Below are positions 49,135 to 51,705 of a DNA stretch of 64,000 nt, piece after piece. Position 1 is the first letter of the stretch. Every line of letters begins with the position of its first letter. The DNA is from Halopenitus persicus. GTDB lineage: Archaea > Halobacteriota > Halobacteria > Halobacteriales > Haloferacaceae. A program made the translations under genes and the position numbers. The notes under the pieces are model-generated. The model saw nothing but the letters and a program-made list of their open reading frames with translations, was not told the DNA's origin and searched no databases. The stretch is from the NCBI RefSeq assembly GCF_002355635.1, contig NZ_AP017558.1, positions 310,001-374,000 on the forward strand, read 5' to 3'.

Positions 49135-50124
49135 ATGGAGTACACGACGCTGGGCGACACGGGAATGGAGGTCAGCCGGATCTGCCTCGGCTGTATGAGC
49201 TTCGGATCGAGCGACTGGCGCGAGTGGGTCCTCGACGAGGGGGAGAGCCGGGCGATCATCGAACGGGCGATCGATCTCGGCATCAACTTCTTCGACACGG
49301 CGAACGTCTACTCGAACGGCGAGTCCGAACGCGTCCTCGGGAACGCGTTGGAGGGATACGACCGCGACCGGCAGGTGGTGGCCACGAAGGTCTACGGGGA
49401 GATGGACGGGACGAATCCCAACGCCGGCGGGCTCTCGCGCAAGGCGATCGATCAGGAGCTGTCGAACAGCCTCGACCGCCTCGGGATGGACACGATCGAC
49501 CTCTATCAGACGCATCGGTGGGATTACGATGCCCCGATCGACGAGACCCTTCGGGCGCTCGACGACGCCGTTCGCCGAAACCAGGTCCGTTACATCGGCA
49601 CCTCCTCGCAGTGGGCCCATCAGTTCTCGCGGGCCCTCCACACGAGCGACGATCTCGGGCTGGAACGGTTCCAAACTATGCAGAACCACTACAACCTCGC
49701 CTACCGCGAGGAGGAACGCGAGATGGTGCCCCTCTGTGACCGCGAGGGGATCGGCGTCATCCCGTGGAGCCCGCTCGCACGCGGGTACCTCACCCGCCCC
49801 CACGAGGAGTTCCTCGAGACGACCCGCGGCAAGTATATGAACGACGGCCGGTTCGCCGAGCGGATCGACACCTATCGCGCGAACGGCGGCGACGAGATCA
49901 ACGACCGCGTCGCGGAGCTCGCGGCCGAAAAGGGCGTCACGATGGCGCAGATCGCGCTCGCGTGGCTCCTCCACCAGGATGCGGTCGACGCGCCCATCGT
50001 CGGGACGACGAGCGTCGAACACTTGGAGGAGGCCGTCGAGGCGCTCGAGATCGACCTCTCGGAGAGCGACCGGGCATATCTCGCGGAGCCGTACGGACCG
50101 GTCGCGGTGAACGGCCACGAGTAG
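49135..50124 (+). CDS. aldo/keto reductase
   Basis: 329-residue TIM-barrel NADPH oxidoreductase. Catalytic set: Asp in FFDTANVYSNG, Tyr in that same motif, Lys in VVATKVYG and His in YQTHRWD. The cofactor region is IVGTTSVEHLEEAVEAL. Sequence start MEYTTLGDTGMEVSRICLG is typical of the AKR/YghZ-like group. Substrate unknown. A non-autonomous transposon is inserted 30-40 bp after its stop. Confidence 0.94.
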   Translation: MEYTTLGDTGMEVSRICLGCMSFGSSDWREWVLDEGESRAIIERAIDLGINFFDTANVYSNGESERVLGNALEGYDRDRQVVATKVYGEMDGTNPNAGGLSRKAIDQELSNSLDRLGMDTIDLYQTHRWDYDAPIDETLRALDDAVRRNQVRYIGTSSQWAHQFSRALHTSDDLGLERFQTMQNHYNLAYREEEREMVPLCDREGIGVIPWSPLARGYLTRPHEEFLETTRGKYMNDGRFAERIDTYRANGGDEINDRVAELAAEKGVTMAQIALAWLLHQDAVDAPIVGTTSVEHLEEAVEALEIDLSESDRAYLAEPYGPVAVNGHE

Positions 50125-50162
50125 CAGTCCAGGCCAGGCCCGATCGAGAGTGCGGACGGTCG

Positions 50163-50863
50163 GGCTCCGTTGAAATCCTATTCTTCAGACATTCTGACTG
50201 AAACAGCCGATCGATGGAGGCTGCGTATACAGTAATCGGCTATGATTGATTGGCATCTCCCTGGAATGTTTCGGCCGATGGGAACTCGTCATAGCAAACG
50301 TTCCTCAATTGTGGATTGGTAGGACGTTCGGGCTCAAATTGTACGAATATGGCGTCGCCAGTATATTCGGGGTGGCAATCCAGCGTGATCGACTCGGTTT
50401 GCTCGTGGCCATCGCCGAACGATGCTGTCACGTCGAGACGGGTACCAGTGGGCATCTTACCGAGTGCGATCTCTGTTTCTACTGTCGTCCATTCGTCAGG
50501 CGGAGCTCCAGCGACCTCCATATACTGGCGGGCTACCACCGTGTCACCGTTCTCGATGAGAAGGGCTCCCTCGTGACGTGAATCGGTATAATTGTGGACC
50601 GAAATCAGCAGGGACTGCTCCGGATCGGAGAGCGCCGCACACCCTGCAATCGCGGTGATACCGCCTGTACTTCCGAGGAGGAACTGCCGACGAGTCGGGG
50701 ACATACGACTGCTTGCGTGTCAAGTTGTGATATTTTTTTTTTCCACGGTGAACGAGCCGATGGGGATGAAAGATACAATCTCTGGACTGAGCGATCCGTG
50801 AGTCTCCTGTCTCGAACGAGGTGGGAGTCCGACGTATCAGCCCCTGAGGGTTTCAACAGAGCC
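50163..50863. mobile_element. 701-bp non-autonomous IS6-type element with lipoprotein cargo
   Basis: Left end GGCTCCGTTGAAATCCT (50163-50179) and right end, inverted, GGCTCTGTTGAAACCCT (50847-50863) match at 15 of 17 positions. Immediately outside lie identical 8-bp words GACGGTCG at 50155-50162 and 50864-50871, a perfect target-site duplication. The GGCTCTGTTGAAA ends and 8-bp duplication agree with IS6-family elements. There is no transposase inside; the only gene is the lipoprotein at 50240-50704. Insertion is between two convergent genes, with the right duplication ending one base before the GDT1-like stop. Lower GC than the flanks. Confidence 0.85.
50240..50704 (-). CDS. Tat-exported lipoprotein, unknown (transposon cargo)
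   Basis: 154-residue protein. Signal MSPTRRQFLLGSTGG with twin Arg and lipobox IAGC (Cys 22) show Tat export and lipid anchoring. The remaining 130 residues look like a single beta-sandwich (LLISVHNYTDSRHEGALLIE, VTASFGDGHEQTESITLDC, AIFVQFEPE) with two distal Cys. No family recognised. It is the only gene between the transposon ends and keeps an intact frame; a run of T (minus: A) about 25 nt upstream can serve as promoter. Confidence 0.8.
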   Translation of the reverse strand: MSPTRRQFLLGSTGGITAIAGCAALSDPEQSLLISVHNYTDSRHEGALLIENGDTVVARQYMEVAGAPPDEWTTVETEIALGKMPTGTRLDVTASFGDGHEQTESITLDCHPEYTGDAIFVQFEPERPTNPQLRNVCYDEFPSAETFQGDANQS

Positions 50864-50871
50864 GACGGTCG

Positions 50872-51705
50872 CTATCCGACGAGCGTGAGGATCGTCGCCG
50901 CCGCCGCCTCGACGACGGTGTCCCAGACCGAGACGCCGGTCACGATCGCCTGCAGCGTGTCGATCCCGAAGAACGCGAAGGCGGCCCCCGCCAGGTGGTG
51001 TGCCGTCCGGAGGTCGAACCGGTTCGCGAACCGGAAGAACACGAACGCGTTCACGAGGCTGACCGGGATGATGGCCGCCATCTCGCCCGCCCAGATGGCC
51101 GCCGGGAACGCGGGGTACTGGGCGGCCAGCCCGATCGTGACGAGCTGGGTCTTGTCCCCGAACTCGCCGAACGCCATCAGCGCGAAGATCGGGAGGAATC
51201 CCCCGAACGCGTTGGGTATTCGCCACCCGAGATAGGGAACGCGCACGTCGAGCTCCCCGTCGAGCATGCTCGTCCCGCCGTCGTCGTCCGGGAGCGAGGC
51301 GTCCTCGCCGGCCGCGACGCGGTCGGGGGTGGCAGCGGTGGCGTCGGCGGCGTCGGCGTTCACGTCGGCGGCGTCGGTGTTGTCGTCGTCCGGTGTGGCG
51401 GCGGCCGACCCGCCGTCCGTCCGCGTCCGCGAGGGCGCGGACCGCAACAACGCGACGGCGAAGAACAGGAACAACAACCCGGTGAGCAGGTCGAGATAGA
51501 CGGCCGGAAGCACCCGCTGAACGTAGCTTCCGAACGCGATCTCGAGGACCGTCCAACCGGCGAAGGCGCTCCCGGCGGCGGCCACGACCAACAGGGGGTT
51601 GTACCGCGTCGACAGGCCGGCGATGATGAACTGGACCTTCTCGCCCGGCAGCACCGCGAGCTGGGCGAGAAAGGCGATCACGGCGACGTCCATCCAGGTC
51701 GTCAT
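50872..51705 (-). CDS. GDT1/TMEM165 (UPF0016) family transporter
   Basis: 277-residue cation transporter-like protein with two three-helix repeats. The second repeat has the family motif FGEFGDKTQL; the first has the degenerate LPGEKVQ, where the E-x-G-D-K/R-T motif is altered. A long acidic Ala/Asp loop (about residues 92-145) separates the repeats. GDT1 proteins move Mn or Ca against protons. Its stop is one base from a transposon target duplication. Confidence 0.88.
   Translation of the reverse strand: MTTWMDVAVIAFLAQLAVLPGEKVQFIIAGLSTRYNPLLVVAAAGSAFAGWTVLEIAFGSYVQRVLPAVYLDLLTGLLFLFFAVALLRSAPSRTRTDGGSAAATPDDDNTDAADVNADAADATAATPDRVAAGEDASLPDDDGGTSMLDGELDVRVPYLGWRIPNAFGGFLPIFALMAFGEFGDKTQLVTIGLAAQYPAFPAAIWAGEMAAIIPVSLVNAFVFFRFANRFDLRTAHHLAGAAFAFFGIDTLQAIVTGVSVWDTVVEAAAATILTLVG

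Follow-up and report, generated by a model that had tools for sequence, protein, structure and literature searches.

Haloarchaea are known for rampant gene exchange, and mini-transposons that carry cargo generally count as rare oddities. A mobile insertion cassette (MIC) consists of the ends of an insertion sequence (IS) placed around a passenger gene; it lacks a transposase, is expected to be mobilised in trans and is modular. MIC231 of Bacillus cereus belongs with the IS231/IS4 family and is flanked by duplications of 10-12 bp. Papers on MIC231 are among those cited in PMC2266710. In haloarchaea MITEs have been described, such as the HqIRS families of Haloquadratum and MITEHsal2 of Halobacterium with a length of 411-413 bp (PMC3119063, PMC10264941). 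Four of five Haloquadratum MITE families were reported to be non-coding, and only the ISH2-type family has a likely protein-coding ORF (PMC3119063). For the IS6 family, tips of the form GG..cTGTt..aaa have been described, and passenger-carrying elements are very rare (PMC7986276). A passenger gene of a Halorubrum lacusprofundi transposon was named a candidate virus-exclusion factor (PMC10544981).

The window, which is the whole 64-kb stretch of DNA analysed here, comes from a 3.1-Mb haloarchaeal genome (G000:C1:310001-374000) and contains an element of 701 bp at positions 50163-50863. The element and its surroundings comprise the following features (window coordinates):

49135..50124, plus strand: flanking gene outside the element, aldo/keto reductase (AKR), PF00248
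50155..50162, no strand: left copy of the target-site duplication (TSD), GACGGTCG, exact over 8 bp
50163..50179, plus strand: left terminal inverted repeat, GGCTCCGTTGAAATCCT
50163..50229, plus strand: left end module of about 66 bp, 58 of 72 columns equal to the consensus of 54 elements
50230..50783, minus strand: captured segment with the lipoprotein gene and its upstream region, 83% DNA identity to the free copy of H. persicus
50240..50704, minus strand: passenger gene, Tat lipoprotein of 154 aa with the Tat motif TRRQFLL and the lipobox AIAG/C
50784..50863, minus strand: right end module of about 80 bp, 58 of 85 columns equal to the consensus of 54 elements
50847..50863, minus strand: right terminal inverted repeat, GGCTCTGTTGAAACCCT (reverse complement)
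50864..50871, no strand: right copy of the target-site duplication, GACGGTCG, exact over 8 bp
50872..51705, minus strand: flanking gene outside the element, GDT1 cation/proton antiporter, PF01169

The AKR and GDT1 genes are convergent, with stop codons facing each other across a short gap, and the stop codon of GDT1 abuts the right target duplication. The inverted ends of the element are identical in 15 of 17 bp, and GGCTCYGTTGAAA, with at most one mismatch, occurs at two places in the 64-kb window, which are both element ends (0.06 expected). GC content amounts to 52-58% in the element versus 62-74% in the flanks. The congeners compared were Halopenitus persicus (G066) and H. malekzadehii (G065); in H. 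persicus the AKR-GDT1 junction is empty, with 95-97% DNA identity and 35 bp between the genes. The exact TSD, the inverted ends and the empty site of H. persicus agree that the 701-bp segment is an insertion. Neither a transposase nor any transposase remnant was found inside it. With IS-type ends and a passenger but no transposase, the segment has the make-up of a mobile insertion cassette. An earlier note had described a 701-bp segment with ends matching in 15 of 17 bp and a perfect duplication, containing an intact Tat lipoprotein gene and no transposase; this description is borne out by the GACGGTCG copies at 50155-50162 and 50864-50871 and by the 154-aa gene at 50240-50704(-), and the empty AKR-GDT1 site which it proposed to look for exists in H. 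persicus. Its further claim of a non-autonomous, cargo-bearing element that was transposed as one unit and depends on a transposase in trans is supported, and full elements with the same ends exist as well.

The anatomy of the element is tripartite. The module consensus was derived from an alignment of the window element with 53 others (54 in total). The left module corresponds to the end that follows the transposase stop codon in IS5/ISHla2-type elements, and the right one to the transposase-start side of the parental IS, the right module of the window element being divergent from the consensus (58/85). Homology of the captured segment to the corresponding H. persicus locus (L021) breaks off where both end modules start, the inner limit of the right module meeting the captured segment at 50783. 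It should be added that the consensus of the right module contains an imperfect repeat, GGTCAGTACAGG / GCTCAGTACAG, possibly a pair of transposase-binding sites.

The 154-aa lipoprotein gene is intact and is the sole credible gene in the element. Its dN/dS against relatives is 0.28-0.36, which indicates that the captured gene is under purifying selection. The protein gave no NCBIfam, PDB-sequence or PADLOC match, only a weak signal-peptide match in Pfam, and no match in viral contigs; the predicted fold is all-beta (mean pLDDT 52), and its PDB matches are generic, uninformative beta-sandwiches with a TM-score of about 0.35. Free homologues without ends are found in H. persicus (79% amino acid identity), H. 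malekzadehii (62%) and two Halorubrum genomes (62%), and homology to the H. persicus copy also covers about 80 bp preceding the start codon. The earlier note had also suggested a search for the two ends together with this lipoprotein, and the answer is divided: the ends are widespread, and in other genomes the lipoprotein has distant relatives within or next to such ends (L030, L035, L036, L038), but the cassette itself was found nowhere else in the genome or in the relatives searched. The window genome holds the lipoprotein gene a second time, in decayed form, at G000:C1:1600692-1601136 (L012, about 2190-2640); this copy shows 69% DNA identity, contains two stops, is without end modules and adjoins an aldehyde-dehydrogenase-like gene.

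Autonomous elements with comparable ends point to the transposase concerned. The GGCTCTGTTGAAATCC ends surround a 273-aa transposase with a DDE_Tnp_1 domain (PF01609), for which the annotation reads IS5 family, ISHla2 or ISHxa2, and every TSD-flanked, transposase-encoding full element with such ends that was recovered is of this IS5-family type. An element of Natrinema (L047, 1177 bp) combines the left module of the window element with a transposase of the 273-aa type and an 8-bp duplication, AGAAATTC. A second one, from H. malekzadehii (L189, 1463 bp), has GGCTCTGTTGAAATCC-type ends, is flanked by AAATAATC on either side and encodes an intact transposase with 81% identity to that of L047. The left module of the window element is common to L047 and L063, and the right module is alike over about 35 bp. 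In terminal repeats, 8-bp TSD, shared subterminal sequence and an IS5 partner transposase the window element thus has the features of an IS5/ISHla2 derivative. In the window genome no intact partner transposase with matching ends was found: the closest copies are broken (a copy with 92%/86% identity is frameshifted), and the nearest intact transposase is 68% identical and has a divergent end. A present-day source acting in trans is therefore not established in the window genome; an intact partner in the same genome is not strictly required for derivation from the IS5/ISHla2 group. A more remote relative in the window genome (L198, 45% identical) has GGCTCTGGTGAA / GGCTCTGGTGAATCGC ends and an 8-bp TSD, GACTAAAT. 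The window genome also contains four IS6 transposase genes, whose elements have the terminal repeat AGTCGTGTTTAGTT. These are four near-identical 697-bp elements (L016-L019), the duplication of L016 being the 8-bp GATGCCTT, and an IS605-type TnpB gene is apparently interrupted by this IS6 copy.

Both end modules recur across haloarchaea. The left-module consensus was matched in 123 of 171 genomes of the family and on 60 plasmids across haloarchaea; no match to the pattern was obtained in viral contigs and in phages. About 100 further loci were taken and end pairs with target duplications were sought in them. An exact 8-bp duplication at offset 0 was present in 45 of 176 distinct end pairs (0.003 expected by chance), and none was present at offsets 1-6 in the same pairs. 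When one TSD mismatch is allowed, the survey gives 57 distinct elements of 178-2466 bp, of which 45 have exact duplications. This large cassette family with common end modules is apparently undescribed: no description of it or of ISHla2 was found in the literature searched, a scope which leaves ISfinder and the key IS reviews outside, and individual members may already be on record as MITEs in their own right. Two minor sites in the window genome belong here, a mini-element of about 125 bp, GGCTCTGTTGAAATCC...GGTTTCAACAAAGCC, at G000:C1:1148786 (L003/L011), with no room for a gene and no obvious duplication, and a lone left end module with no second end in its vicinity at G000:C1:2427923-2427992 (L010/L013).

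Signs of mobility and fusion were found in other members. On plasmid pHLAC01 of Halorubrum lacusprofundi a 462-bp cassette is present twice with 100% identity, one copy having a perfect duplication. A cassette with an M48 peptidase stands alone in one genome, at L220:1490-2612 (1123 bp, TSD AAAGTTCC); in another genome, at L179:2501-4371, the same cassette follows a different one in a fused unit bounded by GAATCTTT. At the junction of this fusion the inner terminal repeat lacks about 12 bp. Internal copies of the ends occur in 8 of 57 elements, and in L164 the left module stands at both ends of a host-type symporter gene that is free in related genomes. The fusions, the internal ends and L164 are the traces expected of composite transposition followed by loss of the inner ends.

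On the basis of the module structure, the TSD, the empty site, the free homologue of the cargo, the IS5 elements with the same ends, the diversity of the family and its fusions, all of them read from DNA comparisons, the 701-bp segment is considered an IS5/ISHla2-type mobile insertion cassette, one of a large haloarchaeal family, presumably moved in trans (probability about 0.88). Its history would have been as follows. An IS5-family element would have kept end modules of about 66 and 80 bp while a host-type lipoprotein gene took the place of its transposase gene; pick-up of the gene may have occurred by composite transposition of two neighbouring elements, the inner ends of which were then lost. 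An ISHla2-type DDE transposase from elsewhere would recognise the end modules, the cassette would have been inserted where the convergent AKR and GDT1 genes leave a short gap, and an 8-bp staggered cut would leave GACGGTCG on both sides.

The earlier note had assigned the segment to IS6, and this affiliation has to be abandoned. In such a case an IS6 transposase would act on the ends of a non-autonomous element via co-integrate formation, and the 8-bp TSD, the GG tip with the motif CTGTTgaAA, which is like the IS6 consensus (PMC7986276), and the presence of IS6 transposases in the window genome all agree with that. However, the AGTCGTGTTTAGTT ends of the genome's actual IS6 copies have no motif in common with the 701-bp element, and the partner transposases of GGCTCTGTTGAAATCC-ended elements are IS5-family DDE_Tnp_1 proteins, not PF13610. 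The likeness to IS6 tips is superficial; an IS6 origin was rejected and is left with a very low probability. The note had also proposed to look for a full IS6 element with the same ends; full elements do exist (L047, L189) but encode an IS5 transposase. The passenger, which the note had called unexpected, is the rule in this family, where nearly every element with these modules has one and lipoproteins recur.

A less improbable alternative, though still an unlikely one, is that an autonomous IS once carried the lipoprotein gene beside its transposase and lost the latter by internal deletion. Small passenger ORFs beside the transposase are indeed known from autonomous relatives: L047, L063, L138 and the annotated ISHla2 (L050) each have an extra ORF of 57-93 aa, mostly membrane proteins. 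Against such decay speak the 701 bp without a transposase remnant, the free lipoprotein gene copies outside any ends, and the failure to find an element with both a transposase and this lipoprotein in the relatives searched. The two histories differ in the order of events only. A chance arrangement, in which a lipoprotein gene native to the AKR-GDT1 interval happened to lie between accidental repeats, has nothing in its favour and is contradicted by the empty site in H. persicus, the exact TSD, the modules conserved across haloarchaea and the 45 duplications where 0.003 were expected.

Taking the segment as an IS5/ISHla2-type cassette, the best-fitting known kind of element would be the mobile insertion cassette, with MIC231 of Bacillus as its example. 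Both have IS ends, a passenger gene, no transposase and a modular make-up, and both would be mobilised in trans. In contrast to MIC231, the present cassettes are haloarchaeal, have IS5/ISHla2 ends, 8-bp duplications and long conserved subterminal modules, and carry dozens of different passengers enriched in envelope proteins. With IS5 elements of the ISHla2/ISHxa2 type the window element shares the terminal sequence, the whole left module of L047 and the 8-bp duplications of L047 and L189; in place of its lipoprotein gene, those elements encode the 273-aa DDE transposase. Haloarchaeal MITEs are likewise non-autonomous, with terminal repeats and target duplications, but nearly every cassette element codes. 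The MITE class, understood as short, non-coding and internally uniform, was rejected because the gene is intact and under purifying selection and the interiors differ among members.

If mobilisation in trans is confirmed, such cassettes would be a general route for gene movement in haloarchaea, would account for many of the orphan hypothetical genes that haloarchaeal plasmids carry, and would supply a transposon vector ready for use in this group. Across the 57 sampled elements, a single pair of end modules surrounds dozens of unrelated genes, most of them for envelope proteins, and the cassettes fuse. More tentatively, and with the odds rather against it, the end modules could be a haloarchaea-wide platform for gene capture and shuffling, integron-like without an integrase, on which IS5/ISHla2-type transposases acting in trans would pick up, fuse and spread single host genes. 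If so, a preference for surface lipoproteins and small membrane proteins would help to diversify the cell envelope.

Nearly every recovered element carries a passenger, and the interiors are mostly unlike, with few recurring families. Recognised passengers include a sodium/bile-acid-type symporter, an M48 peptidase, an AstE/AspA enzyme, a 7TM histidine kinase, a trypsin-like protease, TnpB, a phosphate-binding-like lipoprotein and several DUFs; as the calling of short ORFs was mechanical, errors are possible for single small passengers. Lipoproteins account for 12 of 55 passengers by the lipobox pattern. With a simple hydropathy window as predictor, at least two transmembrane (TM) segments were predicted in 50% of element ORFs vs 15% of flanking ORFs (p=6e-12). 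Dinucleotide-shuffled interiors gave 0% with at least two segments, so base composition alone does not explain the enrichment in membrane proteins. Orientation of the passengers relative to the modules is unbiased (29 vs 26). A general defence function of the passengers was considered and rejected, PADLOC matches coming from a few passengers only, including TnpB. The element at L076:1499-3050 combines a PIN-domain gene and an adjacent AbrB-like ORF, which look like a toxin-antitoxin pair carried as a transposable passenger, with a further small membrane ORF.
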